The notes under the pieces: model-generated
Seen by the model: only the letters and a program-made list of their open reading frames with translations
Database searches by the model: none
Told to the model about the DNA's origin: nothing
Made by a program: the position numbers and the translations under genes
From: Pontiella desulfatans
GTDB taxonomy: Bacteria > Verrucomicrobiota > Kiritimatiellia > Kiritimatiellales > Pontiellaceae
Direction: 5' to 3'
DNA: 64,000 nt
Assembly (NCBI RefSeq): GCF_900890425.1
Contig: NZ_CAAHFG010000001.1
Coordinates: 1,364,001-1,428,000 of the forward strand
In this document: positions 15,245-36,638 of the stretch, piece after piece
Position numbering within the stretch: the stretch's first letter is position 1
Layout of the letters: every line of letters begins with the position of its first letter

Positions 15245-18200
15245 ATGAATAGGAACCCAATTAACAAATACGTACGTTTGGCAACCGGCGCAATGGTTTT
15301 GGGAGCATCCGTCTGCCAGGCCGCCGAGGTGGAGCTGTTGCAGTCCACGATCGTGGATGACAACGCGCTGAACTTCAGCAGTTCCGCAGCCACGTTCAAC
15401 CGGAACGTCAACGGACGCACCTACCAGCGGTTCCCCATGGCAACGTTCAAGGGCTATCAATATGCGACCTACTACAACGGGGATCGCCATGTCTGCCTGG
15501 CGCGGCGCAAGCTCCCGGATGGGGCGTGGGAGGTGATCCGTTTCACCGATTATACGATTTCGGTTAGTGATTCACATAATGTGGTTTCCGTGGGCATCTG
15601 CCAGAAGGATGGAACCATCCATCTCATGTTCGATCACCACAAGGACGACCTCAACTACCGCGTCTCCAATATCGGCGTGGCTTCCAATCCGGAATCAGTG
15701 ACCTGGAGTACGGCTTTGTTCAGCTCGATCACGGACAATCTGGGATCGGTTGGGTCAATCACGCAGCTGACCTATCCCACCTTCTTCAACGCGCCCAACG
15801 GAAACCTGATGCTCTACTATCGCTATGGGGGATCGGGCAGCGGCGACGGCATGATCCAGGAATACAACGGGACGACGCACGACTGGACGACCGGGCTAGG
15901 GAAGTTCATTTCCCGCAGTGGAAGCTACTCAGGGGCGTATTCCTCGACCTCCCGCAACCCCTACATCAACGGGATTTCATACGGCGGCAACCGGCTGCAT
16001 GTCTCGTGGGGCTGGCGCGAAACCAGTACCACTTCCGCCAGCAACCATGATTTGAACTATGCCTACAGCGACGATGACGGACGGACGTGGCGCAACAATG
16101 CGGGAACGCAAATAGGTACGACGGGTTCTTCTTTTATATCGATCAATTCGCCCGGACTGATCGTGGCCCCGATTCCGCAGAATATCGGCCTCTCCAACCA
16201 ATACACCCACTATGCCTTCCCGGATGGCAGCTGCCATGTGATGGTGGAGCATAACAATGTTTATCAGCACTATTGGCGCAACGCCGCCGGTACCTGGAGC
16301 CAGGGAACGCTCTCCTTCGACGGCAGCCGCCCGAAGCTGTGCGGCGATGACGACGGCAACCTGTTCCTGGCCTATGCGGATGGGGGAAATCCCCGCATCG
16401 CCAAGGGCGTGCCCAACGCCGGGCAAACCGCTTGGAGCTGGTCGCAGGTCTATACCGAAAGCGGCACCACCGAAGGCGGGGAAGGGCAGATCGACTATTC
16501 CCGGTGGGAGTCCGACCGCATCCTTTCCTTCTATGGGCAGGAAGAACCGCCCAACACCGGGGAAGCGCCATCGCCCCTGCATGTGTTCGATTACAAGGTC
16601 TCCGGCAAGGCGATCCTGCCGGTGCCGGAAAACGGTGCGGCGGTATTAGATGTGGGCCTGGCTTTGGAATGGACGGCCGGCATCGACGCGACAGCCCACC
16701 GGGTATATTTGGGAACCAGCGAATCGGCGGTTGCCTCGGCAACCACAGGCTCGCCGGAATACAAGGGGGAGCAACCGGGCACGGTGTTCTCGCCCTCGCC
16801 CTCGCTTTCAAGCCTGGGCACTTATTATTGGCGCATCGACGAGGTGCAGGCCGATTCAACCGTGATTCCGGGGATGGTCTGGGCATTCAGCCTGATCCCG
16901 GTGGGCGGAACGGTGACGCAGGTCGTGGATCAAGGCACCTGGAACGCGGCTTCAACCTGGGATCCGGCGATCGCCCCGATGGCTGGAATCGACTACGAGA
17001 CCTCCATGCAATTGCGCTCACCCTCCACATCCGCCACCTTCGCCGGCGACATGCTGACGGTCTTGCAAGGCGGCGAGCTTGCCCTGAGGAACATCGGCGC
17101 CCATGTCGTCGTGGTGCCCGATCTGGTGTTGGATGGCGGCAATATCCGGGCAAGCACCGGGCTCGATGTGACCTCGACCTTGGCCGGAAGCATCAATGTG
17201 CTCACCAATGCCGCACTGGTTGGGTACTGGAATACCACCGGGGTGCGAAACCTGCGGATACTTTCGAACATCGGCGGCAGCGCCGAGCTGCGCAGCACCT
17301 CCTCGAACATCGCCTCCACCCACACGCTCTTCATCGACAACCCGGGCAACAGTTTTTCCGGCGCCTGGATCAGCGAGAGAGGAACCATTGAATTTGCGAG
17401 CGCAGGTGCCGTGGGTTCGGCCGATATCGATGTGCGGGCCAACGGCAGCGTGGCGATTATGGGCAACTGGGACGGGTTGGCTGTTGGCGCCGCCTTGACG
17501 GTTGCCGACAGCGCCTCCGCCACGGTGGATTTTGGAAGCAATCGATGGACGGTTGCCAACCTGGCCATCGGCAGCACCAGTGTGGGCACCGGCTCCGTCT
17601 ACACGGCATCGGAGTTGAATGCGCTGGGAGCCGCCGTGTTCGCCGGTAGCGGCTCGATCCAGGTTGGTGTTCTTTCGCCGCCTCCACCCGGCGTGCTGAT
17701 TGCGGGATGGGATGGCTGGGACAGCGACACCGCGCCGGGTGCCTCCTACACCGCCTCGGACATAACCGCCACCGCAACCGCCTCCGCCGTGGGCGGGACG
17801 GAAAGCTGGAGCACGACCGACACCAGCACCGATCCCGGCCGCGGCTCCAGTGGGGACACGACGTGGGGCAACCATGCCGGGCCTCCCGCCGCGAGCGCAA
17901 CGACCGATGTCCACGGCGCAAACTTCACCTTGACCAATGGCAAGACCGACGGGGAGATTACGTTGACGATCAACAATACCGGTACGGAAGACTTCGAGTT
18001 GGGGGCGTTCCATTTCGACGCCGTTGCTTTCCGTCCCAACGCGGCGAGAACCTATGCGCTGAACGTATTGGCCGGCAGCGATATTTCGGTCGGCAATGTC
18101 TTCACTTCGCCCAATGATGCGATCACCTCTCTGAATGGAGGGTTGGAGGGGCACGACCAGCACGATGATATTGAAATCTACTTGAACGTTCTCGCCGATA

Positions 18201-18520
18201 ACGTCCTTGAAGCAGGCGGGACAGTGATCTTCCAGCTGGAGTTTTCGTCGGGAACCGGAGACGGGGGAGGCCACCACCTGTTTGTTGACAATGTCGGGAT
18301 TTCGCTCGTGGGCGGTTCGGAACCGGCCGATCCCCCGGTGCTTGAATACAATTTCAGCAACGGGAACATGGTGTTCACCTGGTCGGACAACCGCTTCAAG
18401 GTGCAATCCCGCACCAACCTGGTGAACGGAACCTGGCATGACATTCCGGGCGGCACGGTTCCACCGGTGAGCGTTGCCCCGACCAATGGCGCGGATTTCT
18501 TCCGGCTGATCGAGCAATAA
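15245..18520 (+). CDS. Secreted BNR_4 beta-propeller protein, PL24/PL25 ulvan lyase-like, with C-terminal modules
   Basis: 1091 residues from ATG 15245; an earlier ATG at 15161 would precede the signal peptide (NKYVRLATGAMVLGASVCQA) by 28 residues. Residues 30-455 are a BNR_4 propeller. SDSHN (His111), FDHH (His131/132), TYP (Tyr177) and YYRYG (Arg193) recall the His/His/Tyr/Arg active site of PL24/PL25 ulvan lyases; this is from memory of those structures. A fibronectin-like domain (about 460-550, ending YYWRIDEVQ) follows, then beta-strand repeats (555-810), an AGWD module (about 816-1020) and the FKVQSRTNL tail (1030-1091) shared with five neighbours. It probably acts outside the cell on a sulfated polysaccharide. 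The BNR_4 family is secure; lyase activity is inferred. Confidence 0.75.
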   Translation: MNRNPINKYVRLATGAMVLGASVCQAAEVELLQSTIVDDNALNFSSSAATFNRNVNGRTYQRFPMATFKGYQYATYYNGDRHVCLARRKLPDGAWEVIRFTDYTISVSDSHNVVSVGICQKDGTIHLMFDHHKDDLNYRVSNIGVASNPESVTWSTALFSSITDNLGSVGSITQLTYPTFFNAPNGNLMLYYRYGGSGSGDGMIQEYNGTTHDWTTGLGKFISRSGSYSGAYSSTSRNPYINGISYGGNRLHVSWGWRETSTTSASNHDLNYAYSDDDGRTWRNNAGTQIGTTGSSFISINSPGLIVAPIPQNIGLSNQYTHYAFPDGSCHVMVEHNNVYQHYWRNAAGTWSQGTLSFDGSRPKLCGDDDGNLFLAYADGGNPRIAKGVPNAGQTAWSWSQVYTESGTTEGGEGQIDYSRWESDRILSFYGQEEPPNTGEAPSPLHVFDYKVSGKAILPVPENGAAVLDVGLALEWTAGIDATAHRVYLGTSESAVASATTGSPEYKGEQPGTVFSPSPSLSSLGTYYWRIDEVQADSTVIPGMVWAFSLIPVGGTVTQVVDQGTWNAASTWDPAIAPMAGIDYETSMQLRSPSTSATFAGDMLTVLQGGELALRNIGAHVVVVPDLVLDGGNIRASTGLDVTSTLAGSINVLTNAALVGYWNTTGVRNLRILSNIGGSAELRSTSSNIASTHTLFIDNPGNSFSGAWISERGTIEFASAGAVGSADIDVRANGSVAIMGNWDGLAVGAALTVADSASATVDFGSNRWTVANLAIGSTSVGTGSVYTASELNALGAAVFAGSGSIQVGVLSPPPPGVLIAGWDGWDSDTAPGASYTASDITATATASAVGGTESWSTTDTSTDPGRGSSGDTTWGNHAGPPAASATTDVHGANFTLTNGKTDGEITLTINNTGTEDFELGAFHFDAVAFRPNAARTYALNVLAGSDISVGNVFTSPNDAITSLNGGLEGHDQHDDIEIYLNVLADNVLEAGGTVIFQLEFSSGTGDGGGHHLFVDNVGISLVGGSEPADPPVLEYNFSNGNMVFTWSDNRFKVQSRTNLVNGTWHDIPGGTVPPVSVAPTNGADFFRLIEQ

Positions 18521-18618: not shown

Positions 18619-18717
18619 ACACACCTACGATGAAAGAGGAATCCGCTGGCTTGCATTGCTTGGCCGGTGGATCCAAAGGATAACAACCAGGTCGAAGGCG
18701 ATATACAGGAAGATTTT

Positions 18718-21700
18718 ATGACTAGAACAACGATATTTGCATGGTTTGCGGTCTTTTGCTTATGGGCCTCGGAAGCCTCGGCCTATAAGGTGTGGCTGGG
18801 CACCCACAAGTGGGAGGGCGTGGCGGCCGACAACCTCGATCAATGGGACATGGCCATCGATAAGATCGACGGGATCAACTATGTGCTGCTGGATGCCCGA
18901 CCGGCCCGGCCAGCCGGTGACGGCGCCAATACCAGTGACTGGGACACGATGATCGGCCGGATTGACCAGTCGATTCCCGGTATGGCGGAGATCGCCCGAT
19001 CGCAATATGCGCCCGCACACAGCCGGACCTTGGCTGAGCGGATGGCGAACGAGTTTGCAACGGTTGAAAACCGGGGCGGCGAGATCGATATCATCATGCT
19101 TTATGATGAGGAGAAAGACGGGACTGTTTGGAAATTTTATCTTCAGGACGTCCAAGACGTTCGCGACTGGCTGGATAACAATGGACACGGGGATGTGACC
19201 CTTTGCTTCAACCTCCGCAACAATGACCAGGAGCGGTTGGCGCTGGCCCAGGAGGCTATCTTTGACGGGGTTATGATCGAGGCGAGCGCCACGCGATGGG
19301 TGGAGGATCGGTATAACGTCCATACCCTGTTGCAGGATTTGTGGACGGATCCGAGTACGAGCAACAAGAAGATCTATTTTCAGATTCCGCGGCATGAAAC
19401 GCCTGTCGCATCGGCAAGAAACGGCATTCCGACCTCGCCGATCAACCAGTATATCGAAACCCGCCGGGCGTTGTGGGTGATCAAGGATCTGATGGGCGAT
19501 GCCTTCATGCAAAGTGACCAGGTTATCTTCATTGTCTGCAACTATGGCGATACGTTCGATACCTTTCCGGAAACCGCCAGCAATGATACCCTCTATGTGA
19601 ATACCAAATCGGGAGTAGCCCTATCCTTGATTGAGCAACGCTCTGCTTTTGAGGGACGTACCGGTTTGGTGGACGAAACCCTTTGCGCAAGTTACGACCG
19701 GCTGCTCGCTCCGACCATCAGCTCCATTGCCGACCAAACCGTGCAGGCCAATACCTTGGCGGGGCCGTTGGCCTTCACGATCGATGACGACTTGACCGTC
19801 CCCTCCGCGCTCACGCTGACCGGAGCCTCCTCCGACACCAACCTGGTGCCGTTGGAAAATATATTCTTTGGTGGCAGCGGCTCGAACCGCACCGTCACGG
19901 TTGCTCCTGCATTCGGCCAAAGCGGCACGGCGGAGATCCGTGTTTTAGTAAGCGACGGCACGCTGGGCACCACCGAGACCTTCGAGGTTTCCGTACTGCC
20001 TCCGGGGATCGTGGTTGGCACGATCTACAGCTCCGGCACCGATTGTTCCATCAAGGAAGATTCCGTCATCGAAAAGCTGACGGATGCCACCGTGGACGTG
20101 GGCTGCCGGGGTGGGTCGCCGTATGTCGAGCGTTGCACGGTCTATGTGTTTGAACTGCCGGATTTCGGCGCCGTCGGCAATCCGTTTTCGGCAGCCGGTT
20201 TCGCCTTCAATTTCATAGGCAAGGACGGCACGTTGCGCGACTACGACCTCTACGGCCTGGGTCGGCGCAGCAGCTCCACGGTGTTGGCCAGCGATTACTA
20301 CGCGCTGAGTTCCACGCCGGACCCCACCGATGCAACGCGGCTGCAGCAGGACATTCTGACCGCCGCCACACCGCTCGGACTCGTCGGCACCTCGGCAACC
20401 GGAAGCTCCGGTCTGGTGGCATACCTCAACGCCCAGTTTGCAGCCGGCGCGGGTGCCGGGGAATATGTTTTTCTTCGGATCAACTCCACAGCTCCGAAAT
20501 CCGCCATCAGCTATGCGACGTTGACCCTGTCCGAAGGCGGCGTGGCCGTGCCAACCGATACGCGGCCACGGATCACCTACCAGGCGGTGGGCAACACGCC
20601 CCCCTACATGGGTTTTATTGCCGACCAGACGATTCCCGCCAACACCAGCACGGGGCCGCTGGCCTTCACGTTGGGCGACGATTCGACGCCGGTCGGCTCG
20701 ATCACGCTTGAAGCGGATTCCTCGAACACCAGTTTGGTTCCGGTGGCGAACATTGTGCTGGGCGGCAGCGGTTCCAACCGGACCGTGACCGTTACGCCCG
20801 TGGCCGAAGAAGTAGGCTCTGCACAGGTTTCCATCATCGCGAGCGATGGTACGTTGAGCGCCACCAACACGTTCACGCTGACGGTAACGCCTCCTCCGCT
20901 CGTCTATGAACTGATCGCCGGGTGGGATACCTGGGATAGCACCACGGCTCCCGGCGTTTCCTACACGGCGGCGAACATCACTGCATCCGCGACGGCATCC
21001 GCCGAAGATGGCTCTTCCGATTGGAGCCGGACGGACGATGGAAGCGATCCCGGCCGCGGCTCAAGTGGGGACGGTACTTGGGGAACCCATGCGGGACCGC
21101 CTGCGGCAAGCGCAACAACAGATGTCCACGGTTGCAATTTCGCGTTGACCAATGCCAAGACGAACGGGCAGATCACGGTCACCATCAATAATGCCGGTAC
21201 GGAAGACATCGCTTTGGGCGCCTTCCATTTCGACGCCGTTGCATTCCGTAGCAAGGCTGCCCGGACCTACGCATTGAACGTGTTGGACGGAAGCGATGTT
21301 ACCGCCGGAAATGTCTTCACATCGCCGACCGATGCGATCACCGACCTGGGTGGAGACCTCGTCGGCCACGACCAGCATGATGAGATCGACATCGACCTGA
21401 CCGGACTTGCCGATAACGTCCTCGAAGCAGGTGGAACGGCCATTCTCCAAATTATGTTTACGGGTGGCGCAGGTGACGGCTCCGGCGGACACCACCTGTT
21501 CGTGGACAACCTCGGCCTCTCAGGGGCATTCACGGAAACCGTAGCGCCTCCGGCGCTTGACCTGATCGCCGGTTGGGATGTCTGGAACAGCGGCGCAGTG
21601 CCGAGTGCCAATGTCGTCGCGACGTACATCACCGCATCGGCCGTGGCCATCTCGGAAGATCCTACCCGCCCTTGGCATGTGACCGACGAGCGGGGCGCCA

Positions 21701-22368
21701 GCGCGGACGGCACCTGGGGATCCTTTTCGGGAGCACCAACGGCAAGTGTGACAACGAATGCGGATTTTGAAAACCTGGAGCTTCCCAACGCGGTGACCGG
21801 CGGAACGCTCACGTTCTCCGTTACGAACAACGGTACGGCCGGCATCGAGCTCGACACCTTCCACTTCGACGCCTACGCCTTCCGTTCCAAGGCCGCCCGA
21901 ACCTACGAATTGAGTGTATTGCCCGGGGGCGGTATTTCAGCAGGCGTCATTTACACCTCTGGTGTCCAGGAGATCACCGAAGTGAATGGCGCATGGGACA
22001 ACTTCGCACACGACGATATCGACCATTCCCTGACCGGGCTGGCCGACAACACCCTTGGAGCGGGCGAGTCCGTCCAGTTCCGGCTCACCTTCTCCGGAGG
22101 GGCGGGCGACGCTTCCGGCGGCCATGATCTGTGGGTGGATAACGTGGCCATCTCAGGAACGATATTGCCCTCCACGGAACCCCCGATGCTCGAATACAAC
22201 ATGGGCGGCGGCGACATGGTCTTCAACTGGACCGGCGACGGCTTCAAGGTCCAGTCCCGCACCAACCTGACCATGGGTACCTGGCAGGATGTGCCCGGCG
22301 GCGATTTGCCGCCGGTAACAAATTCAACGACCGATCCAGCAGCGTTCTTCCGGTTGATCGGGCAATAG
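18718..22368 (+). CDS. Secreted modular protein with the unrecognised YxVWxG N-terminal domain (paralog 1)
   Basis: 1216 residues; ATG 18718 gives a signal peptide ending ASEASA and has AGGAA upstream. Residues 20-330 share a domain with the proteins at 23595 and 27075: YKVWLG, LDQWDMA, IIMLYDEE, RDWLDNNGHGDVTLC, GVMIEAS, IVCNYGD and ALSLIEQ. The alternating strands and helices, with a conserved Glu in MIEA, read like a (beta/alpha) barrel. No LamG domain here. Instead two Ig/cadherin-like repeats (IADQTVQANT at about 335 and IADQTIPANT at about 640) flank a beta domain, then two AGWD modules (about 730-900 and 945-1140) and the FKVQSRTNL tail. Function unknown; a glycoside hydrolase or binding protein acting on the locus substrate is a guess from context. 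Confidence 0.6.
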   Translation: MTRTTIFAWFAVFCLWASEASAYKVWLGTHKWEGVAADNLDQWDMAIDKIDGINYVLLDARPARPAGDGANTSDWDTMIGRIDQSIPGMAEIARSQYAPAHSRTLAERMANEFATVENRGGEIDIIMLYDEEKDGTVWKFYLQDVQDVRDWLDNNGHGDVTLCFNLRNNDQERLALAQEAIFDGVMIEASATRWVEDRYNVHTLLQDLWTDPSTSNKKIYFQIPRHETPVASARNGIPTSPINQYIETRRALWVIKDLMGDAFMQSDQVIFIVCNYGDTFDTFPETASNDTLYVNTKSGVALSLIEQRSAFEGRTGLVDETLCASYDRLLAPTISSIADQTVQANTLAGPLAFTIDDDLTVPSALTLTGASSDTNLVPLENIFFGGSGSNRTVTVAPAFGQSGTAEIRVLVSDGTLGTTETFEVSVLPPGIVVGTIYSSGTDCSIKEDSVIEKLTDATVDVGCRGGSPYVERCTVYVFELPDFGAVGNPFSAAGFAFNFIGKDGTLRDYDLYGLGRRSSSTVLASDYYALSSTPDPTDATRLQQDILTAATPLGLVGTSATGSSGLVAYLNAQFAAGAGAGEYVFLRINSTAPKSAISYATLTLSEGGVAVPTDTRPRITYQAVGNTPPYMGFIADQTIPANTSTGPLAFTLGDDSTPVGSITLEADSSNTSLVPVANIVLGGSGSNRTVTVTPVAEEVGSAQVSIIASDGTLSATNTFTLTVTPPPLVYELIAGWDTWDSTTAPGVSYTAANITASATASAEDGSSDWSRTDDGSDPGRGSSGDGTWGTHAGPPAASATTDVHGCNFALTNAKTNGQITVTINNAGTEDIALGAFHFDAVAFRSKAARTYALNVLDGSDVTAGNVFTSPTDAITDLGGDLVGHDQHDEIDIDLTGLADNVLEAGGTAILQIMFTGGAGDGSGGHHLFVDNLGLSGAFTETVAPPALDLIAGWDVWNSGAVPSANVVATYITASAVAISEDPTRPWHVTDERGASADGTWGSFSGAPTASVTTNADFENLELPNAVTGGTLTFSVTNNGTAGIELDTFHFDAYAFRSKAARTYELSVLPGGGISAGVIYTSGVQEITEVNGAWDNFAHDDIDHSLTGLADNTLGAGESVQFRLTFSGGAGDASGGHDLWVDNVAISGTILPSTEPPMLEYNMGGGDMVFNWTGDGFKVQSRTNLTMGTWQDVPGGDLPPVTNSTTDPAAFFRLIGQ

Positions 22369-23573: not shown

Positions 23574-23594
23574 GGATAAAAGTGAGGGTTGAAC

Positions 23595-26500
23595 ATGCGT
23601 GTTAAAATGAAGATGAGAGCCATTGTTTTAATCGTGTCCGTGGTTTTTTCCACGAGTGTGAGTTTGGGCTATGAGGTGTGGTATGGCATGCCCTATTTGC
23701 CGGCAAATGCAGGAACTACCGAAATTGATCAGTGGGATATTGTTGCTCCACAGTTACAGGGGATCAATGCGAATTTTCGGGATGCACAGCGCCCCGAAGA
23801 AGAAAGAAACACCCGCGATACGTGGAAGGCGTCCCTGGACCAGATGCCCAATGCAAGGAATAATGCGCTGGTGGCATTACCGAGACCCGAATTTCAATAT
23901 TCCCCCGGAGGGATGGGCCAGAAAACGTTAGAGGAGGCACTGCAGCTCCGCTGGAACCAGGAAAATCAATATGGAATCACGATCAACTATCTCATGCTTT
24001 ATAATGAACGGCCGCAGGAAAACCCGGACTTGCCCGTCATCGAATATACCGATGCAGAGGTTCAGCAAATTCGGGACTGGTTGGATAATAACGGGCATTC
24101 GCAGGTCATCCTCTGCTGGGATGTCCGCAGTTTCGCTCCGGACGAACAACTTTATTCCGAAAAACCGGCCTTTACCGGTATCATGATGGAAGGCAGCCCC
24201 TATTTATGGGAATCAAATTCCGGAAGACGTAAGGAATATATTCAATGGGCCTTAGCGAATCCCCTGGTGAAAGACAAAGAGTGGGTGATGCAAACCCCTG
24301 TACGAAATATCAGCGGAATGAATCTCTACGAATCGATGCGTTGGTTCATGCGCTATATTCCGCAGATTCTTGGAGGTTTCGATTTTTGGCGGCGCGATGA
24401 TGTTTCCATGCTGACCATCACCTACGGCCCTACAGATAAACACCTTCCGGAGCTAGAGTCGGGTGAAACGCAATATGGAAATTCGATCATGGGCTTTCAA
24501 CTCTCCATTATTGAACAAAAAGCTTTGTTTGAGGGATATCATGGTGCGATTACAGAAGCACAAGCCGAAAGCCGCGATAGAATCATTTATGACATGCCGC
24601 CGGAAGGGCCGGCTTCCGGCCTGCTCGCGCACTGGCCGTTGGATGAAGGTTCGGGAACGATCGCGGGCGATGCGTCGGGCTATGGATTCGACGGCGAGCT
24701 GCTCAACGGCGTGACCTGGGGCAGCGATGCGGAGCGCGGAACCTACGCGGTGTTTGACGGAGTGAATGACCGTATTACCACGCCGCTCAACAATGCGCTG
24801 GCCGACACGAACGACTTTACCTGGGCCTGGTGGGCGAAAAGCACACTTCCTGCGACGGATACCACACAGAAAGGGGCCATCATGGTGGGCAACCGCTACG
24901 GGAATACGGGCGACCAAAGTTTTGAATTTATCAAATTCACCCCGCAGGGCGCTCAACTCGCGAATACGGATAATGCCGGCACCATCGAAAAATATGAGTA
25001 TGCCGACATTCCGCAGAATGAATGGCACCATTACGCGATGGTGAAAACCGGCACGAGTTATCAGTGGTATGTCGATGGCGTCGCGCAGGGTGTGGCCTCC
25101 AATTTTGTCTACAGCGAATCCTCCACAATCCCATTCCTGATCGGCGGCGATGACGATGGTTCGGGCACCAAGGTGAACGAACATTTCCAGGGCTGCATCG
25201 ACGACGTGGTGCTGTATCGCCAGGCGCTGACGCCGACGGAAATCGATGATGTGATTAATGGTATCTATCTTCCGACGATCACCTTGGTTACCCTTGGAAC
25301 ACCCGTTGATTCGACGGAACCCACAGCTTGGTCTGATGGTCAGGCGCCTCATGGCGGTGCCGATTATGTGATTCCAGACACTGGAAATCTGCGTGGCGAA
25401 TCCGGAACCACCACGTTTCCAGGTGCCTCTTTGAAAGTGGAGGCGGGCGGCAAGTTCCAGGTTCGTTCGCTCGACAGTTCGAGCCAAATCACCACCGTGA
25501 ATAATCTGATTCTCGCAGGTGGCACAGGCGCAAATTATACCCAGCTGGCCGCCGGAACGGGTACCGGAGAGATCAATGTGCTCGACGGAAAAGTGACCAA
25601 CTCGGGCGCCAGCCGACTGGTGACATACGCTTCGGTAACCCGAAGCCTGAAGGTGCTTTCGCAAATCAGCGGCGATGGAACCCTGCAGGCCGGCGGCGGC
25701 GCCTCCGTCATTGTTGACAACGCCGCCAACACCTTCTACGGCACCTGGGAAGCGGATGCCGGCACGACACTGACCTTCACCAGCGGCGGCGCGGTCGGAA
25801 CGGCCGATGTCGACGTGCTGGACGGCGGAACGCTTCAGATCCTCGGAACCTGGGACTCGGGCGCCTCGCTGAGCGTCGCCGACACGGCAACGACACAGGT
25901 TGATCTTGGATCCTACAGCTGGTTTGTTTCTTCCCTCCTGTTTGGCGGATCATCGGTTGAGGGCGGAACCCGGACCGCATCGGAGCTGAATGCGCTCGGA
26001 GCAAACAGCGTCTTTACCGGAACCGGCACGCTTACGGTCGTGCCGGAAGGGTCTGTCTATGTTTCGGCCGTCTACAACACGCCGGGTACGGTGATGTGGA
26101 CCTGCCCTGAAGGCATCACCTACATTCAGGTGGAATGCTGGGGCGGCGGCGGCGCAGGAGGAGGCGCTAAGCTAACGGCGACAAGTGGCGGCGCGGGCGG
26201 CGGCGGTGCTGCTGCGGGTGCCTATGCCAGGGTGATGAATGTTCCGGTCACGCCCGGCAATACCTACAGCCTTACCATTCCGGCGGCGGCCACGTGTTCT
26301 TCCGGCTTTACCGACGGCCAGCGGTTCAATGGCTCGGCCGTGACCTTTACGGGCGATGGCGGGGAAACGGTCACCGCCGCGGGCGGACAAGGTGGCGCCT
26401 GCCATATCGGCAGTGCCAACGGACCGGCCGGCATCGGCAGCACGACCGGCTGCGTCGGAGACCAGTTTTACAAAGGCGGTAGCGGCGGAAACTACGGCAG

Positions 26501-27074: not shown

Positions 27075-30000
27075 ATGAGTGCTAAAAATAAGATGAGAAT
27101 CTTTTATTTAATGGTGTCGGTGCTTTTTTCAGTGAGCATAAGTTTTGGCTATCAAGTTTGGTTTGGCCTGCCCTATATGCCGAAGGAATCCCAAAGCAAT
27201 CTTGATCAATGGGATTTCATGGCCACGCAAGTGAAAGGGCTCAACCTTAATCCAGTGGATACCCAGCGGCCGGATGAAGATCGAAACAGTACGGCTGACT
27301 GGAAAGCGATTGTTCAAGCCATGCCGACCGCCAAAAACAATTGCATGATCGGCGTCCCGAGAACGCACTTCTTTTACGATGGATATGGAGGCTCCTCAAA
27401 ACCCACATTAGCGGAAATGCTAAACACAAAATTTAAGCAGGAAGGAAAATATGCATGCCAAATCAAATGGGTCATGCCGTTTGATAACCAACCCGGAGAA
27501 GACCGAACGCTGCCAATCGAGCTATGGAGCGATGCCGAACTGCAGGAACTGCGGGATTGGCTGGATAATAATGGGCATGCCGATGTTAAGTTATTGACCA
27601 ATGTGCGAAACAACGGCACCCGGGCTCATGATTTTGCTGAGAAAGCCATTGTCGATGGTATGTCCATAGAAGCCAAAGCCTACCTTTGGTATGAGAATAA
27701 CGGCCGCAGGCAGGATTACCTTCAATGGGCCGTGGCAAACCCGTTGACCAAAGATAAAAATTTTAAGTTTCAGGTTCCTTTTGGAACATATGACGGAGAA
27801 AGCGGATATCAGGCGATGCGCGGTTTTATGCGTTGGTTGAGTAACACCGTGCTGAATAGTACGGAACTTGTCCGGCGTCCGGATACGGTATTTCTGATCA
27901 TCACCTACGGCCCTAGCGATCCGCATCTTCCGGAACTGTCGGCTGATGAAACGGAATATGTAAATACGATGTCATCGCTGTCGTTATCGCTTATCGAACA
28001 AAAGGCCATGTTTGAAGGAACTGCACCGGGAGGTTTGATCTCCAAAGCGCAGACCCTGAGCTATGACCGAGCAGTAGTTGATTCCGCCCCGACCTCCGGC
28101 TTGGTGGCGCATTGGCCGCTGGATGAAGGTTCCGGAACGGATGCATACGATGCGTCGGGCTATGGATTCGACGGCGAGCTGCTCAACGGCGCGACCTGGG
28201 GCAGCGACGCGGAGCGCGGAACCTATGCGGTCTTTGATGGAACGGACGACCGAATTGAAACATCCTTCACCTACGCACTGGCCGACACGAATGACTTTAC
28301 CTGGGCGTGGTGGGCAAAAAAGGAGCCCACATCGCATTCGGGTTCGATCATGCTCGGCAACCGCTACGGCAACACGGGGTCGGAAACGTATGAATTCATC
28401 AAAATGACGCCCTCCAAAGCATCGTTTGCGAACACGGACAGTACCGGTAGCATTGAAAACTATGACTATGCGGAGATTGCCGTGTCGAGCTGGCACCACT
28501 ATGCGATGGTGAAGGACGAAACGAGCTACCAGTGGTATGTCGACGGCGTGGCGCAAGGTGTGGCATCCAACTTGGTCTACAGCGAATCCTCTCCGCTTCC
28601 ATTCCTGATCGGCGGAGACGATAACGGGTCTGGCACGGTGAATGAACATTTTGAGGGCTGCATCGACGACGTGGTGCTCTACCGCAGCGCCCTGACGCCC
28701 GGGGAAATCATCAATGTCATCAACGGTATCTATCTGCCGACGGTTACGCTGACCACGCTGGCAACGCCGGTTGATTCGACCGATGGCAGTGTTTGGTCGG
28801 ACGGTCTGCCCGCCCACGGCGGAGCGGATTATGTGATTCCAAGCACTGGAAACCTGCGTGGCGAATCCGGAACCACCACGTTTCCAGGTGCCTCTTTGAA
28901 AGTGGAGGCGGGCGGCAAGTTCCAGGTTCGCTCGCTCGAAAGTTCCAGTGACGTGACGACGGTGAACCATCTGGTTCTCGCAGGCGGTGCGGGCGCAAAT
29001 TATGCCTTGCTCGCCGCCGGAACGGGGAACAATGCGATCAATGTACTCGATGGCACCATCACCCAATCGGGCGCATCGAAACTGCTTACCTATGGCGGCT
29101 CCATTGCCCGAAGCCTGAATGTGCTTTCACAGATTAACGGCGATGGAACGCTCCAGGTGGTCGGCGAGGGCGCAATGATCGATAACGCCGCCAACGCCTT
29201 TTCCGGAACATGGGAAGTCGCCGACGGCGCAACGTTGACCTTTAACAACGCCGGCGCGGTCGGTTCGGCCAATATCGACGTGCTGGATGGTGGAACGCTC
29301 CAAATTCTCGGAACCTGGAACTCGGGCGCCTCGCTGAGCGTCGTCGACACGCCAACGACACAGGTTGAGCTTGGATCTCAAAGCTGGTTTGTATCTTCCC
29401 TTCTCTTTGGCGGCTCGCCGGTTGAGGGCGGAACCCATACCGCATCGGAGCTCAATGCGCTCGGAGCAAACAGCGTCTTTAGCGGAACCGGCACGCTTAC
29501 GGTCGTGCCGGAAGGGTCGGTCTATGTTGCGGCAACCTACAATGCGCCGGGTACTCAGACTTGGACGTGCCCGCAAGGCATCAACTACATTCGGGTGGAG
29601 TGCTGGGGCGGCGGCGGCGCGGGGGGAGGTGCCGTGCGAACCACGCCGACAGGCGGCGCGGGCGGCGGCGGTGCTGCTGCGGGGGGCTATGCCAGGCTGA
29701 TGAATGTTCCGGTCACGCCCGGAATGAATTACACCATCACCATTCCGGCGGCGGCCACGTGTTCTTCCGGCTTTAGCGACGGCCAGCGCTTCAACGGCCC
29801 GGCCGTGACCTTTACGGGCGATGGCGGGGCAACGGTCACCGCAGCAGGCGGACAAGGCGGCGCCTGTCATATCGGCAGTGCCAACGGACCGGCCGGCATC
29901 GGCAGCACGACCGGCTGCGTCGGCGACCAGTTTTACAAAGGCGGCAGCGGCGGAAACTATGGCAGCAACAATGGCGGAAGCGGCGGCAGCGGTCCCAGCG

Positions 30001-30443
30001 ACCTGGCGAACGGGGTGGACGGCTTAACAACGGAAACGGGCGGCGGGGGCATTGGAGCGACGGGCAGCGATGCTGCGCACGACGGCGGTGACGGCGGCGA
30101 TGGCAGAGGCGCCGGAAATCATGGTTTCGCCGGTAGCACTCCGGGTGGCGGCGGCGGGGGTGCCAAGTCCCAGATGCAAGGTGGAGAATATCTCGGCGGC
30201 TCGGGCGGCCTGGGCCAGATCATCATTACCTACCTGCGGCTTCCCGCAGATGAAGCGCCAATGCTCGGGCACGGTATGAGCGGCGGCGGCATGGTCTTCA
30301 ACTGGACGGGCAACGGCTTCAAGGTGCAATCGTGCACCAACCTAACGGAAGGAACGTGGCAGGATGTGCCCGGTGGCAACATGCCGCCCGTGACGAACTC
30401 CACGGTAGAACCGGAAGCCTTCTTCCGGTTGATTGAGCTGTAG
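27075..30443 (+). CDS. Secreted modular protein with the YxVWxG N-terminal domain, LamG and Gly-rich regions (paralog 3)
   Basis: 1122 residues from ATG 27075. Signal peptide MSAKNKMRIFYLMVSVLFSV...SFG. The N-terminal domain keeps YQVWFG, LDQWDF, RDWLDNNGHADVKLLTNVR, GMSIEAKAYLWYEN, FQVPFG and IITYGPSDPHLPE. At the position of NER (paralog 2) and DEE (paralog 1) it has DNQ, so a second carboxylate there is not conserved, whereas the Glu of SIEA is. The LamG, passenger, Gly-rich and tail regions follow in the same order as in paralog 2. It begins 96 bases after paralog 2 without a clear copy of the regulon motif; TGGAACGATGTTAA at 26995-27008 is only a weak match. It may be read through from site C. 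Confidence 0.6.
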   Translation: MSAKNKMRIFYLMVSVLFSVSISFGYQVWFGLPYMPKESQSNLDQWDFMATQVKGLNLNPVDTQRPDEDRNSTADWKAIVQAMPTAKNNCMIGVPRTHFFYDGYGGSSKPTLAEMLNTKFKQEGKYACQIKWVMPFDNQPGEDRTLPIELWSDAELQELRDWLDNNGHADVKLLTNVRNNGTRAHDFAEKAIVDGMSIEAKAYLWYENNGRRQDYLQWAVANPLTKDKNFKFQVPFGTYDGESGYQAMRGFMRWLSNTVLNSTELVRRPDTVFLIITYGPSDPHLPELSADETEYVNTMSSLSLSLIEQKAMFEGTAPGGLISKAQTLSYDRAVVDSAPTSGLVAHWPLDEGSGTDAYDASGYGFDGELLNGATWGSDAERGTYAVFDGTDDRIETSFTYALADTNDFTWAWWAKKEPTSHSGSIMLGNRYGNTGSETYEFIKMTPSKASFANTDSTGSIENYDYAEIAVSSWHHYAMVKDETSYQWYVDGVAQGVASNLVYSESSPLPFLIGGDDNGSGTVNEHFEGCIDDVVLYRSALTPGEIINVINGIYLPTVTLTTLATPVDSTDGSVWSDGLPAHGGADYVIPSTGNLRGESGTTTFPGASLKVEAGGKFQVRSLESSSDVTTVNHLVLAGGAGANYALLAAGTGNNAINVLDGTITQSGASKLLTYGGSIARSLNVLSQINGDGTLQVVGEGAMIDNAANAFSGTWEVADGATLTFNNAGAVGSANIDVLDGGTLQILGTWNSGASLSVVDTPTTQVELGSQSWFVSSLLFGGSPVEGGTHTASELNALGANSVFSGTGTLTVVPEGSVYVAATYNAPGTQTWTCPQGINYIRVECWGGGGAGGGAVRTTPTGGAGGGGAAAGGYARLMNVPVTPGMNYTITIPAAATCSSGFSDGQRFNGPAVTFTGDGGATVTAAGGQGGACHIGSANGPAGIGSTTGCVGDQFYKGGSGGNYGSNNGGSGGSGPSDLANGVDGLTTETGGGGIGATGSDAAHDGGDGGDGRGAGNHGFAGSTPGGGGGGAKSQMQGGEYLGGSGGLGQIIITYLRLPADEAPMLGHGMSGGGMVFNWTGNGFKVQSCTNLTEGTWQDVPGGNMPPVTNSTVEPEAFFRLIEL
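28854..28930 (+). repeat. 77-bp perfect direct repeat (copy 2)
   Basis: Identical to 25389-25465; see that entry. Confidence 0.9.
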
Positions 30444-30497: not shown

Positions 30498-30628
30498 TAT
30501 GCGCAAGGTTTTCGGGGTGCAGTTGTTGGAATAAAACCAAGTTCGATAAAAGAGGAATAAACCGCATCGCTGAACCAGCGCATATGCGCGTGTGGAATCC
30601 AGAGCGGGACGAGTGGCAAGGAGATACA

Positions 30629-33600
30629 ATGAGGAATCATGTTTTTAACGCCGTATTGTTGACGTGTTTGTTTTTAGGTGGCGCATCAAGACTCGATGCG
30701 GCGGTCTATTATGAATCCGGCGGCTTGGTCATTATGGAGATGGAGAACACGGATTCTCCGCTAGGGCTGTGGCAACAGCAATCCTCCCTGGGCGGGTATA
30801 CGGGAAGCGGCTATCTGCAGTTCCTGGGGAATACGTACGAAACGGGGCCGGCAACCTCTCCGCTTGAGTACACGTTTAAAGTGAACCAATCCGGGCTTTA
30901 CTATCTCCACCTCCACTGTGCGAAGGAGACGCATGATGGCCGAACAGATGTGGCCAACGACTGCTATGTGCGCGTGGAAGGGGATTACAGTGCCGGGCCG
31001 GCTCCATGGGACAGTCATGGCGACAATGCCCCCTTGGGCATGCTGCAAAGTGATACCAAATATTTCGGGGGAGCGGCTGATGCCTGGAAATGGGAAGATG
31101 GGGAGCTGTCTTCGGGGGGCAATGGAAACCTGGATGCCGGCGGAACGTCAAACAAGCGGGTGGCGGTCTACGATTTCAAGGCCGGGGAGACCTATACGCT
31201 GGTTGTTTCCGGGCGCTCCAAGTTTTTCAGGATCAACCGCATCATGTTCCGCCACACGTCGGTGGCGAAGACTACGGCGCAGAACCTCGGCAATCCGGAA
31301 TCGGGGATGGTGACGTCGGTTGCAGAATATGCCTATGAGGCAACCTCCGATTTTCCCGACTACCTGTCCGGCGATGTTCCGTACTATATCGACCCTGGCA
31401 ACGACGCGCTGGCCATCGCGGCGAACATCGAGGCGAACCGTAGTGGTTTTGCCCGGGCTTCGAGAACCTTTGATGGCGCGACGGGCCACTACGATGTGAC
31501 GATTACCACGCTGACGGAAGAGGATGGGGAATCCACCTACCGGCTGCTGGTGAACGGATCGGTTGTGGCCACCTTTGTGAATACCTACATCGGCCCCGGT
31601 TCGCCGCAGGACCTGCAACCGGAAACCCACCGATGGGTGGGCATCCCGATCAACAGCGAAGACACCCTGGCCATCGAGTCGAACGCCGACACCAATGGCG
31701 AAATTCCCGAAGGCACCAACGGCACCGCCTGGGCGCGCGGCCGCTGGCGCCAGATCGAGCTGACGTCTTCGCTGGTTAAGCCGCCGACCGGTCGGCTGGC
31801 CTATGTCGCCGACGGCAACTCGCCGGACCCGGACGATATCGGCGCCAATGCCGTGCTGTTGGGGCTGCTGAAAGGGGCTGAACAGCAGGATCGGCTGGTT
31901 CACTTCTCGCATTCGTGCGACCTGGTTAAAGCCAGCAACATTTCCGCTGCGGACGAACTTCGCCGCCAGGCGTATTTGCACCGGACAGCCGCTGAAGGGT
32001 TGTCCTACTTCGGGCCGTTCACCAATCTGGCCGACTACTACAACTGCCGCTCCAACCAGACGGCGGCGGTCGCGAACCTGACGGCGGCCATCGACGCTTC
32101 AACCGCCGCCGATCCGCTGTGGATCATCGAAGCCGGCGAACCCGACATCATCGGCTATGCCTTGCAGGCCGCCGACCCCGCAAAGATACCGTATGTTCAT
32201 GTGGTGTCGCACCATCCGGCCAATGATGATAGCGGCGACATCTTCACCTGGGCACAAATCTTGGCCTTTGGCGTAACCGAACATCAGATCGGCGACCAGA
32301 ATGTTGGATTGCAGGTGCTCATGAGTTCCGGATTGTGGGACTGGGCGGAAGGCCATGGCAATCCGGCCATGGTCTGGATTCTTGACCAGCTGAAATATGC
32401 GGAAGCCGATGGCGTCGTCGGTTTCCAGACCGGCAAGTACGACTGCTCCGATGCCGGGATGATCTACTGGTGGTTGACCGGTGCCGATAACGGTGGAAAC
32501 AAGCATTCCACCCCGGTCGAAATAAAAGACCTGCTGCTCTACGATGGCATCACCCTTGCCCCGACGGTCACCATGGTTGCACTGGGCTCCGCGGTGGATT
32601 CGACCGCAGGCAGCACATGGTCGGATGCGCAGCCCGCGCATTCGGGAGCCCATTACATGGTTCCCGCCACCGGAAACCTACGCAGTGAAAGCGGAACTTC
32701 AACCTTCCCCGGCGACTCGCTAACCGTTCTGGCCGGGGGTAAATTCCAGGTGCGGTCGCTGGATACACTCGGCGAAACCACGACGGTGAACCAGTTGGTT
32801 TTCAGAAACGGAACCAGTTTTGCGGCGGGAGAAGTTGCCCAACTCGCCGCGGGAACCGGTAATGATTTGACGAATGTGCTCGGCGGAAGCATCTCGAATT
32901 CGGGTTATACCAAGTTCCTTTCCTACCATGCCTACAGTGGCGGCGCCATTTCCCGGAGTTTGAGCATCCAGTCTGCGATTGACGGTGATGGGCATATCCA
33001 GGCCTGGGAAGGATCGACGGGCTATGGAGGGGAAACCGTGATTATCGCCAATGCGGCCAACACGTTTTCCGGAACATGGGAAGTTGGTACGGACACCACG
33101 CTGGTGTTCAACAACGCCGGTGCGGTTGGTTCGGCGGATGTTGTTGTTCTTGACTCGGGCAAGCTACGGATTTTGGGTGATTGGAACACCTATGCAAACC
33201 TGACGGTGGCCGACACTGCGACCACATCAGTCGATCTGGGTTCCCATGCCTGGAAGGTAACCCATCTGGACGTTGGAGGAACTGCCATTGCCGACGGCTC
33301 GTATACCGCGGCCCAGCTCAATGCATTGGGAACGAATCCGGTATTCAGCGGCAACGGAACCCTTGTTGTTGGCGCCGCCCCGCCTCCTCCCGTATCGGCA
33401 ATTGTTGCCGGTTGGGATACGTGGGATAGCGCGACCGCTCCCTCCGCATCCGTGCTTGCACCGAATGTCACCGCATCGGCTGAAACGACCACAGAACAGC
33501 AATCTTGGAATGTCGTCGACGAGCGCGGTGCCAGCAACGACGGTGATTGGGGAACCTTTGCAGGCCCCCCCTCGGCGAGTACCGTAACCAATGCGGATTT

Positions 33601-34204
33601 TGAAAACCTTGAGTTGCCGAATGCCACCACCGGCGGAACCATCACGTTCTCGATCACAAATAATGGTCTGGCCGATATCCAATTGAATGCCTTTCATTTT
33701 GACGCCTATGCGTTTCGTCCCAAGGCGGCCCGGGCATACTCGCTGAGCGTGTTGGCCGGCAGCGATATTACCGTCGGTACGATCTACACGTCAGCGGACG
33801 ATGAAATTTCTTCCGTAGGTGGGGCGTGGGACAACGGTGCGCATGACGATATCGATCTTTCCCTGGCCGGGCTTGCCGACCATACCCTTGCTGCCGGCGA
33901 GTCGGTCGACTTCCTGCTGGCCTTTTCAAGCGGAGAGGGGGATGCCGCCGGCGGCCATGATCTGTGGGTGGACAACGTTGCCGTTTCGCAGCTGGTCACC
34001 GTCCCCCCGGCCGCACCCCCGGTGCTCGGTTTCGACATGAACGAAGGCGATATGGTCATCTCCTGGAGTGGGAGCGGATTCAAGGTGCAGTCCTGCACCA
34101 ACCTGACGGTAGGCGCCTGGAACGATGTGCCCGGCGGCGATATGCCGCCGGTGACGAATTCCCTGACCCATCCGGAAGCCTTCTATCGTTTGATTGAGGA
34201 ATGA
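30629..34204 (+). CDS. Secreted protein with nucleoside-hydrolase-like domain, N-terminal binding domain and C-terminal modules
   Basis: 1191 residues from ATG 30629 (AAGGAG 8 bases upstream; the earlier ATG at 30584 lacks a signal peptide). Residues 20-205 resemble a CBM6-like beta-sandwich (VIMEMENTDSPLGLW, YTFKVNQSGLYYLHLHC). Residues 215-385 are a second beta domain. Residues 388-640 (AYVADGNSPDPDDIGANAVLL, VHFSHSCDLV, WIIEAGEPDIIGYAL, HVVSHHPAND) resemble the nucleoside-hydrolase-like (DUF1593-type) fold, whose first strand carries the Asp cluster that binds calcium. Then come passenger strands (645-925), one AGWD module and the FKVQSCTNL tail. It was probably recruited for glycan work rather than nucleosides, because it is secreted and controlled with the locus. 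Confidence 0.6.
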   Translation: MRNHVFNAVLLTCLFLGGASRLDAAVYYESGGLVIMEMENTDSPLGLWQQQSSLGGYTGSGYLQFLGNTYETGPATSPLEYTFKVNQSGLYYLHLHCAKETHDGRTDVANDCYVRVEGDYSAGPAPWDSHGDNAPLGMLQSDTKYFGGAADAWKWEDGELSSGGNGNLDAGGTSNKRVAVYDFKAGETYTLVVSGRSKFFRINRIMFRHTSVAKTTAQNLGNPESGMVTSVAEYAYEATSDFPDYLSGDVPYYIDPGNDALAIAANIEANRSGFARASRTFDGATGHYDVTITTLTEEDGESTYRLLVNGSVVATFVNTYIGPGSPQDLQPETHRWVGIPINSEDTLAIESNADTNGEIPEGTNGTAWARGRWRQIELTSSLVKPPTGRLAYVADGNSPDPDDIGANAVLLGLLKGAEQQDRLVHFSHSCDLVKASNISAADELRRQAYLHRTAAEGLSYFGPFTNLADYYNCRSNQTAAVANLTAAIDASTAADPLWIIEAGEPDIIGYALQAADPAKIPYVHVVSHHPANDDSGDIFTWAQILAFGVTEHQIGDQNVGLQVLMSSGLWDWAEGHGNPAMVWILDQLKYAEADGVVGFQTGKYDCSDAGMIYWWLTGADNGGNKHSTPVEIKDLLLYDGITLAPTVTMVALGSAVDSTAGSTWSDAQPAHSGAHYMVPATGNLRSESGTSTFPGDSLTVLAGGKFQVRSLDTLGETTTVNQLVFRNGTSFAAGEVAQLAAGTGNDLTNVLGGSISNSGYTKFLSYHAYSGGAISRSLSIQSAIDGDGHIQAWEGSTGYGGETVIIANAANTFSGTWEVGTDTTLVFNNAGAVGSADVVVLDSGKLRILGDWNTYANLTVADTATTSVDLGSHAWKVTHLDVGGTAIADGSYTAAQLNALGTNPVFSGNGTLVVGAAPPPPVSAIVAGWDTWDSATAPSASVLAPNVTASAETTTEQQSWNVVDERGASNDGDWGTFAGPPSASTVTNADFENLELPNATTGGTITFSITNNGLADIQLNAFHFDAYAFRPKAARAYSLSVLAGSDITVGTIYTSADDEISSVGGAWDNGAHDDIDLSLAGLADHTLAAGESVDFLLAFSSGEGDAAGGHDLWVDNVAVSQLVTVPPAAPPVLGFDMNEGDMVISWSGSGFKVQSCTNLTVGAWNDVPGGDMPPVTNSLTHPEAFYRLIEE

Positions 34205-34214
34205 ACACAGTTAT

Positions 34215-34267
34215 TTTAACGATCTTAATCATCTAAAGGTTGTCCATTTTCGCGGAGGTTGTTATGG
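34215..34267 (+). promoter_or_regulatory. Regulon site E with promoter
   Basis: TTTAACGATCTTAA (34215-34228), 11 bp, TTGTCC (34240-34245), 16 bp, TTATGG (34262-34267). It begins 10 bases after the stop of the preceding gene. Confidence 0.6.
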
Positions 34268-34325
34268 GTTGTTCCAAGTTAAAAAGGAACAGGTGTATTC
34301 ATACGAAAGCATAGGAGGTTAGGAG

Positions 34326-36638
34326 ATGAAGAGTAGGACAATGCAAGCGGTGGCCGTTGCTGTTATGGCGGCATGTGTCGTGGGGGCGAATGCCCAAACC
34401 ACAACGAACGCAACCCCAACGGATTCCCATGTGCTTCAAGGAAACTTCCAAGTCGGCGGTCTCCCCGTCTTTTTGGCGAACAATTCGAACGCGGACCGTT
34501 GCGGTACTGGTGGGGCCACTGGACAGCAGCGTGTCAACCAAGCCATTTTTAGCTTCGACCTGCCAAGTATTCCCGCCGGTGAGACGGTTAATGCGGCGAC
34601 CTTCTCGTTCAAGATGTTTTCCACCGCGGTCAATGGAGCACCACTGGAGTTTGATATGGTGCTCTGCCTGATGGACCATGACGATATCGGTGATTTTTCG
34701 GGAGCGGATTTTGTTGAGGCCACCGCGCCTATCAACTCGCCGTTGACCAACGGTGTTGTGATTGCCCAGCTTGCGGTGGCGGATGTCTCCAACAATGAAA
34801 CGATTGACGTATCGCTGACCGGCGCCGCATTGGCGCAGCTTGCAGGCCTCTATGATGGTACGGGTACACCCTCCCAATCCAAACTCTGGTTCCGCGCCAG
34901 CACCAGTACGAACATCGATACAAGTGTGGCGGATAACGCAAATGACCGATTCAACTTTGATGATGCGGGGCACACCGGACCGAACATCAGCGGCTTGGAG
35001 CTGGACTGGGGAATCCCTTCGCCGGATATCTATTACGTCGCAACCACGCCCACCAACTGGACGGTCGGTGCGGCCTGGAGCGATGGCAATCCTGCGGCGG
35101 CCGGCGACGATTACTACGTCACCAACGGCGTGGCCCTGCAAACACCGTCCGCCACCGCCACGTTCCCCGGAGACGCGCTGGTTCTGGAAGGTTCGCAGAC
35201 CGTGGAACTGATGGCTTCCGGAGCCGATGTGATTACTTTCCCGTCCCTGGACCTAAGCGGCGACACGCTGCGCGCCGGTGTGGTCGACAGCGGCGAAGCA
35301 AAGGTCGATGGAACGCTCAATGTTATTGGCAATTCCTCGTTTGGCGGCGCCACGGACAGTTCGCGAGATCTGCGCGTTCTTGCGCTGGTCACCGGGTCGT
35401 CGACCGTGACGCTGTCCGCGCCCGGCAAAACGATCTATATCGAACATGCCGGCAACACCTTCGATGGCACGTGGAACCTGACGGGCAACTATGCGGAGTT
35501 CGCCTCTCCGGCTGCGGTGGGTGCGGGCAGTATCCAGGTGGGCAACTTCGGCAAGCTGCGCATCCTCGGCGACTGGGACGGCCTTGCTACTGATGAAACC
35601 CTGACGGTGGCCGATAGCGCGAATGCTGTTGTGGAAGTGGGATCGTATGCCTGGAAGGTATCGGCCCTGACGTTTGGTGGCTCGAATGTCGTTGACGGTG
35701 CCGTTTATACGACGGCTGAGCTGAATGCGATGGGGACCAATGCGGTCTTCACCGGAGCAGGGACCATCCAGGTGGGCACGCCTCCGCCGCCACCTCCGGG
35801 CGAGCTGATTGCGGGTTGGGATTCCTGGAGCAGTGGTACTGCTCCCACCGTAACCGTAGTCAAGGCGGGCATCACCGCATCCGCTACGGCAACGGGTACC
35901 GGCGGCGATTGGACGATAGGGGACACCGAAACCGATCCCGGTCGCGGCTCCAGCGTGGACGGTACCTGGGGAACCTATGACGGCGGCGGGAATCCTCCGA
36001 ACACGGTGACCAATGAGCATGGTGCCAACATGACGTTGACCAATGGCAAGACGGACGGAGAGATCACATTCACGATTACAAATAGTACGGCATCAGCCAT
36101 AAACCTGGGCTCGGTACACTTTGACGCCCTTGCGTTCCGTCCCAACGCGGCGCGCACCTATGCGGTGAACGTGTTGGCCGGCAGCGACATCACCGTTGGC
36201 AATGTCTTCACTTCGCCCGATGATGCGATCACCGAGATTGCCGGAAGCGCCGTATTGCTGGCATCGCGCGACGCGCATGACGATATCGACGTTTCCCTGG
36301 CCGGTCTTGCCGACAGCACGCTCGAAGTCGGTGAAGTGGCCATTGTCCAACTGGCTTTCTCGTCGGGAACGGGCAGTGGCGGAGGCCATCATCTGTTTAT
36401 CGATAACGTAGGCTTTTCAGCCGCGGCGTCTACCGGTCCCGTTGAGCCTCCCGTCATGGAATCCGATGTTTCCGGAGGAAATGTCACCCTAAGCTGGGCA
36501 TCGGATGGGGCATTCAAACTGCAGACCCGGCCAAATCTTGTGGTTGGCGATTGGGCCGATGTGCCCGGAGCCACATCCAGTCCTGTGGTCGTTCCGGCCA
36601 CCAACGCTGTCGAGTTCCTCCGTTTGATTGAGCAATAG
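34326..36638 (+). CDS. Secreted DNRLRE-like protein with passenger, AGWD module and shared tail
   Basis: 770 residues. Signal peptide MKSRTMQAVAVAVMAACVVG ANA. Residues 25-235 look like a DNRLRE-type beta-sandwich often found in carbohydrate-binding exoproteins (QAIFSFDLPSIPAGETVNAA, DVSLTGAALAQLAG, KLWFRAST). Passenger-like strands occupy 240-490 (GNTFDGTWNLTGNYAEF, GKLRILGDWDGL), an AGWD module 495-685, and the tail 705-770 (FKLQTRPNLVVGDW, FLRLIEQ). No catalytic domain is recognised, so it may be a binding or scaffold protein. A very strong ribosome-binding site (TAGGAGGTTAGGAG) precedes the ATG. It is the last of the run of large secreted proteins and is followed by a hairpin-rich spacer. 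Confidence 0.6.
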   Translation: MKSRTMQAVAVAVMAACVVGANAQTTTNATPTDSHVLQGNFQVGGLPVFLANNSNADRCGTGGATGQQRVNQAIFSFDLPSIPAGETVNAATFSFKMFSTAVNGAPLEFDMVLCLMDHDDIGDFSGADFVEATAPINSPLTNGVVIAQLAVADVSNNETIDVSLTGAALAQLAGLYDGTGTPSQSKLWFRASTSTNIDTSVADNANDRFNFDDAGHTGPNISGLELDWGIPSPDIYYVATTPTNWTVGAAWSDGNPAAAGDDYYVTNGVALQTPSATATFPGDALVLEGSQTVELMASGADVITFPSLDLSGDTLRAGVVDSGEAKVDGTLNVIGNSSFGGATDSSRDLRVLALVTGSSTVTLSAPGKTIYIEHAGNTFDGTWNLTGNYAEFASPAAVGAGSIQVGNFGKLRILGDWDGLATDETLTVADSANAVVEVGSYAWKVSALTFGGSNVVDGAVYTTAELNAMGTNAVFTGAGTIQVGTPPPPPPGELIAGWDSWSSGTAPTVTVVKAGITASATATGTGGDWTIGDTETDPGRGSSVDGTWGTYDGGGNPPNTVTNEHGANMTLTNGKTDGEITFTITNSTASAINLGSVHFDALAFRPNAARTYAVNVLAGSDITVGNVFTSPDDAITEIAGSAVLLASRDAHDDIDVSLAGLADSTLEVGEVAIVQLAFSSGTGSGGGHHLFIDNVGFSAAASTGPVEPPVMESDVSGGNVTLSWASDGAFKLQTRPNLVVGDWADVPGATSSPVVVPATNAVEFLRLIEQ

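Follow-up and report, generated by a model that had tools for sequence, protein, structure and literature searches.

A C-terminal tail domain of large secreted proteins in Pontiella desulfatans and its pairing with PEP-CTERM genes

Introduction

Among the described systems close to the element studied here is PEP-CTERM/exosortase (EpsH; TIGR02595, PF09721; PMC1569441). PEP-CTERM segments lie at the C-terminus of signal-peptide proteins with otherwise diverse bodies and occur in dozens to hundreds per genome. In PMC1569441 a regulatory motif of the system is reported for Proteobacteria only. Our element is a tail of 64-65 residues that closes six exported proteins encoded in a 64,000-nucleotide stretch of the marine polysaccharide degrader Pontiella desulfatans (assembly GCF_900890425.1, contig NZ_CAAHFG010000001.1, positions 1,364,001 to 1,428,000). 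This whole stretch is called the window, and positions in it are counted from its first base. The tail is like PEP-CTERM in its placement, its hosts and its numbers, and the two occur in the same genome, often in adjoining genes and with shared modules. Unlike PEP-CTERM, the tail lacks the PEP motif, the membrane helix and the basic end, finishes in FFRLIEQ-like sequence, is a probably folded domain of 64 residues and can also stand mid-protein. To our knowledge, the functions of exosortase substrates are mostly unknown.

The C-terminal domain (CTD) of the type IX secretion system (T9SS; PF18962) is likewise a short terminal domain of all-beta type, found in many divergent copies on exported multidomain proteins. 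The tail differs from it in not matching PF18962, in its motif and in having internal copies (8/150). Fibronectin type III (FnIII) domains, such as the Fn3-like 3mpc and those linked to enzymes, share with the tail the predicted strand order, a Trp in the second strand and an aromatic-x-Arg in the last. However, they have about 90 residues, whereas the tail has about 64, seems to lack the last strand, is single and terminal, carries a conserved TNLxxGxW stretch and has no Pfam model match. The "choice-of-anchor" families of NCBI, which we take to be one module followed by alternative C-terminal ends, recall the alternation of tail and PEP-CTERM seen here. In contrast to those families, the alternatives described here lie in paired neighboring genes, and no such model was matched.

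No published description of the tail, or of its pairing with PEP-CTERM, was found in a search of titles and abstract openings, a search that most subscription journals fell outside. In the Pfam and NCBIfam copies searched, no model covers the tail. It has at least 150 copies in this genome and matches in 109 of 288 genomes sampled across the phylum, so that a large share of the big proteins secreted by degraders of algal polysaccharides close with a unit that has no name.

A shared C-terminal domain in the window and beyond

A first-pass annotation of the window had noticed that six secreted proteins end in the same tail, and alignment confirmed this. The exported frames ending at 18520, 22368, 26978, 30443, 34204 and 36638 all close with a common domain in which 18 of 65 columns are invariant and the mean column identity is 70%. 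The domain lies on the forward strand at 18326-18517 in protein 1 (15161 or 15245 to 18520), which has a BNR_4 head (E 2.7e-67), at 22174-22365 in protein 2 (18667-22368), at 26784-26975 in protein 3 (23589-26978; Laminin_G_3 and Gly_rich_2), at 30249-30440 in its paralogue protein 4 (27075-30443), at 34010-34201 in protein 5 (30584-34204) and at 36441-36635 in protein 6 (34326-36638). These assignments rest on sequence and profile, joined by Pfam for proteins 3 and 4. Protein 6 is the most divergent of the six, an outlier that reads FKLQTRPNL, DVPGAT and FLRLIEQ, and the tail of protein 2 ends in FFRLIGQ. When the whole genome (8,658,305 bases, 6 contigs) was searched, the six scored E 7e-32 to 1e-38, far beyond chance, although the six-row profile used had been built from these same tails.

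The ending of the first sulfatase (4-4233), which the annotation had also called related, indeed belongs to the family as a distant member. Its tail at 4027-4230 (+) stops 2 residues before the stop codon and scored E 3.7e-10 against a 75-row profile of which it is itself one row. The C-terminal region of this sulfatase also matches SGSH_C.

Genome-wide, the six-row profile reported 81 places at E ≤ 10, and the 14 above 50 bits all end 0-2 residues from the stop. Those of the 14 that are not in the window lie shortly beyond it (C1:1.435 Mb) or at C1:1.596-1.603 Mb or C4:34-63 kb. The 75-row profile was made from the 81 matches by dropping seven (four chance, three doubtful) and adding the sulfatase tail. 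It found at least 150 copies (the best 150 of 407 candidates were scored; weakest E 3e-6), and contigs C1 to C5 all carry members of this wider family. In an even sampling of the genome (40 × 20 kb, 800 kb) there were 14 copies, so about 150 is a fair genome-wide estimate for this profile. The phylum sample was matched at E 1e-5, with at most 21 candidates scored per genome; in 14 selected positive genomes, where all candidates were scored, there were 3 to 47 copies each. Pontiellaceae bacterium B12227 has relatives at 70-76% identity, at contig coordinates that match those of G227, the second genome used below.

The 150 copies share a Trp in the second strand (63%), a Tyr or Phe (88%) followed by Val, Leu or Ile, then Thr-Asn-Leu (Leu 96%) and a Trp (91%), and they close with Phe (93%), Tyr/Phe/Ile, Arg/Lys (92%) and Leu/Val/Ile. 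Scans of single tails with Pfam and NCBIfam (75 and 39 members) gave chance-level rows only, apart from one. That row was a match of one tail, among the 75 profile members, to Ntox22 (E 6.9e-6). Glu is the last residue of 53/160 tail-terminated proteins and of 77/924 other frames, an acidic bias at the end.

Position in the protein and export

The annotation had described the tail as always last and had named mid-protein copies as evidence against a localization role. Terminal position is the strong rule, with 142 of 150 copies ending within 12 residues of the stop and none at 13-228, but the remaining eight have 229-440 residues after them. For four of them Pfam identified this following stretch, once as a SASA esterase, once as a sulfatase and twice as CBM96. 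The even sample gave 13 of 14 copies terminal, and the other one lies directly after the signal peptide. Among 39 loci of top matches in the phylum-sample genomes, 34 copies are terminal, four are internal and one is cut by the locus end. Two tails in one protein were never seen in 173 tail proteins (160 classed as terminal and 13 not).

Tails are restricted to frames that look exported. A test of whether the tail always goes with a signal peptide had been proposed, and a crude home-made rule accepted 137 of the 149 tail frames with a visible N-terminus; the rule is loose, and the version used on the even sample also accepted 211/610 other frames. Of the 12 failures, six are frames of 92-417 amino acids that resemble downstream fragments, and several others have a plain signal sequence by eye. 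Among the tail frames examined, no cytoplasmic tail protein was shown.

Pairing with PEP-CTERM genes

Tail genes lie next to PEP-CTERM genes far more often than expected. In the window, the tailed sulfatase is followed directly, after a gap of 167 bp, by a PEP-CTERM gene at 4410-5933 (+; TIGR02595 19.8 bits, cut-off 16), and the two form one of the pairs listed. Since the 1.90 Mb of stretches used earlier had been chosen around tails, the PEP-CTERM profile was run over the whole genome, where it found 100 places (best 150 of 204 candidates scored). For 32 of these, a tail gene lies no more than 600 bp away, in all 32 cases on the same strand. Rotation gave a mean of 4.8 pairs (sd 2.4, maximum 16 in 1000), and local shifts of 4-30 kb gave a mean of 9.4 (maximum 18). 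All 32 pairs fall among the 81 best PEP-CTERM matches, and ranks 82-100 contribute 0/19. The PEP-CTERM gene comes first in 19 pairs and the tail gene in 13. A second genome, G227, has 23/61 PEP-CTERM genes within 600 bp of a tail gene, 21 on the same strand, against a null of 4.4 (maximum 12) that used observed contig extents; in three of the G227 pairs the two members overlap, by several hundred bases each. The genome of P. desulfatans has one exosortase match (PF09721, E 2.1e-50). As a separate observation, four consecutive PEP-CTERM matches fall within 2.5 kb at C1:1970403-1972883, and no scored tail gene adjoins them.

Paired genes often share sequence as well. A module was shared within 12 of 27 pairs and in 17 of 837 off-pair combinations, and none of 10000 permutations reached 12. 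The five pairs outside this count had no PEP sequence, and two of them shared a module in a separate comparison. In the 1.90 Mb around tails, sequence upstream of the tail is homologous to one of 40 short PEP-like proteins in 53 of 160 tail proteins, although for 3 of the 53 the best-matching one is not a real PEP-CTERM protein. This PEP-like class was defined by a regular expression and has some false members (for example, C1:302175); therefore, the profile was used for the genome-wide pairing test. Related modules in neighboring genes are thus closed by one of two alternatives, PEP-CTERM or the tail domain. At C1:1435283-1436045, a relative of module B (described below) is joined to PEP-CTERM and flanked by two tail genes with module B, and at C4:41467-42412 the neighbor of a tail gene combines a relative of module A with PEP-CTERM.

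More distant genomes were examined at 30 loci in 14 of them. One real PEP-CTERM end was found within 1.5 kb, and it is on the opposite strand. Regular-expression matches at these loci flagged four PEP ends, three of them plainly false. Since pairing was not seen in these short flanks, it may be confined to Pontiella and its relatives.

Modules in front of the tail

The tail had been said to follow quite different modules. We find instead mosaics of shared modules with differing heads. The 14 close tail proteins are built from a module A of about 250 residues, a module B of about 210 residues, LamG, glycine-rich and other heads, and the unit directly before the tail is module B in eight, module A in three, Gly_rich_2 in two and another module in one. 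Within the window, it is module B in proteins 1, 2, 5 and 6 and the Pfam Gly_rich_2 domain in proteins 3 and 4, which are 67% identical over their length. Profile searches placed module B, always on the forward strand, at 17696-18331 (protein 1), 20908-21546 and 21559-22173 (protein 2, the second copy abutting the tail), 33401-34012 (protein 5) and 35802-36443 (protein 6). Module A, on the same strand, lies at 16940-17680 (protein 1), 25317-26039 (protein 3), 28779-29504 (protein 4), 32603-33385 (protein 5) and 35058-35789 (protein 6). There are 18 copies of module A and 31 of module B genome-wide, the weaker module B matches being distant. Homologues of the BNR_4-type head of protein 1 that have no tail are found in the same window at 36971-38683 and, by eye, at 43664-45043. 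A loose regular expression found DxDGD or EYxxGxDP-like (TSP3-type) stretches within 75 residues before the tail in 75 of 160 terminal-tail frames.

Predicted fold

AlphaFold2, run on 12 tail sequences, gave a five-strand model with a mean pLDDT of 83.2 and a pTM of 0.66. Its structural neighbors are mostly FnIII domains (cytokine receptors, tencons, enzymes), with VIA Z scores up to 6.2, which is below the level that the structure tool calls safe. Alignments with matched chains about 90 residues long end near residue 75, and by this model the tail would lack the last FnIII strand. A phylum-wide tail profile matched an Fn3-like protein best in the PDB (3mpc, E 0.032), with glucanase/chitosanase chains a close second (E 0.068). 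The latter are presumably of the F5/8-type C kind. A fold of that kind needs more than 64 residues, and we rank it second because the unit is too short for it. The 75-row profile from this genome found nothing useful in the PDB, and no FnIII match was listed by Pfam for the 75 and 39 tail members, a search in which distant members can be missed. On this evidence, which is moderate and partly conflicting, the tail is probably a short FnIII-like beta-sandwich.

Possible function of the tail

The annotation had proposed a sorting, anchoring or secretion signal. Terminal bias, export and alternation with PEP-CTERM favor some role of this kind, but the internal copies and the look of a folded domain do not fit a simple signal. 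An element that tolerates an internal place and resembles a folded domain does not qualify as a strict sorting signal; the tail also has no hydrophobic or basic sorting-tag features, and it is missing from close homologues of the N-terminal enzyme encoded in the same window. We lean, tentatively, toward an extracellular terminal domain that keeps large exported proteins of Pontiella-like bacteria in an assembly with PEP-CTERM partners, at the surface or in exopolymer. An N-terminal signal peptide would export the protein, and the tail would then retain it in that assembly. Such retention would be an alternative to the PEP-CTERM/exosortase route, which would be used by short partners encoded next door that often share a module, and the partners might be assembled jointly. 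The pairing hints at a cell surface built in two parts. It is a concrete, testable lead on how enzymes are retained at the cell surface or within exopolymer, and it can guide the search for partners of exosortase substrates.

Several results weigh against retention by the tail. Most genes of either kind are unpaired at 600 bp (no tail gene was scored that close to 68 of 100 PEP-CTERM genes, and 113 of 150 tail genes lack a PEP-CTERM gene at that distance), and 15 of 27 pairs share no module. The pairing test covered only two genomes, both from one genus, and the distant loci gave only the single opposite-strand case. Eight of the 150 tails are mid-protein. For the fold, the other four of the five models have mean values of 45-61, Foldseek returned no match to the tail model reaching E 0.001, viral models included, and a prediction of module B plus tail was weak (mean pLDDT 58, most of the tail below 50) and so lends the fold no support.

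It is quite possible, if somewhat less probable in our view than retention, that the tail plays no part in localization and is simply an FnIII-like accessory domain of the ordinary sort (a spacer, a stabilizing cap or a weak glycan binder). Duplication and shuffling would add modules in front and leave the tail terminal, and its adjacency to PEP-CTERM would reflect a common extracellular repertoire. The FnIII-like structural neighbors agree with this, as do internal copies between enzyme and carbohydrate-binding domains, the heavily shuffled modules and the tandem paralogues of the cluster, and the tail-less BNR_4-type homologue at 36971-38683. However, typical spacer FnIII domains do occur repeatedly, whereas no protein among the 173 has two tails. 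The 142 terminal copies and a same-strand pairing that exceeds the local-shift null as well also speak against it. A mere spacer is hard to accept because the tail is single, has a near-fixed terminal place and is exchanged with PEP-CTERM among related neighboring genes. We therefore prefer a retention or docking domain to an accessory domain, and an accessory domain to an export signal.

The retention reading could be carried further to a two-partner display, which we consider unlikely as a specific scheme. The short PEP-CTERM protein, sorted by the one exosortase, would be an anchored docking base for the adjoining large enzyme or modular protein with its single tail. The two would be joined by the module that they have in common, by strand completion of the tail, which is perhaps one sandwich strand short, or by both.

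A true C-terminal secretion signal for an unrecognized outer-membrane export machine, in the manner of the T9SS CTD, is improbable. Size, terminal position and all-beta prediction would suit it, as would the number and divergence of its copies, which sit on signal-peptide proteins whose heads vary; however, eight copies are internal and homologous exported enzymes have no tail. The annotation had seen no T9SS or autotransporter barrel signature, and this held up: Por_Secre_tail (PF18962) has 0 matches in the genome, with a control that gave a signal below the cut-off in 1 of 14, and the Pfam scan of the six window proteins showed no barrel family. SprA_N also had 0 matches in the genome and nothing in any control either, so this search had no working control and is not used as evidence of absence. 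Recent paralogy within one gene cluster, which the 67% identity of proteins 3 and 4 might suggest as the whole cause of the similarity, is very improbable and largely refuted by the four kinds of preceding stretch among the 14 close copies at several loci and by a family that spans contigs C1 to C5 and 109 of the 288 phylum genomes.

Other features of the window

Another terminal stretch, of about 90 amino acids, is found in the frames at 47028-49541 (-) and 49471-51138 (+), of the TGYAFYSSL type in the former, and was not reported by the tail profile. These ends may represent a second terminal-domain family. A protein with a TonB-like N-terminus at 11657-12127 and 12241-13515 seems to be split by a frame break, and a related intact copy lies at 51227-52633. 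The frame at 6761-8494, which we take to start like a piece of an insertion sequence (IS) transposase and to end like a YdcF-type protein, is perhaps an insertion remnant.

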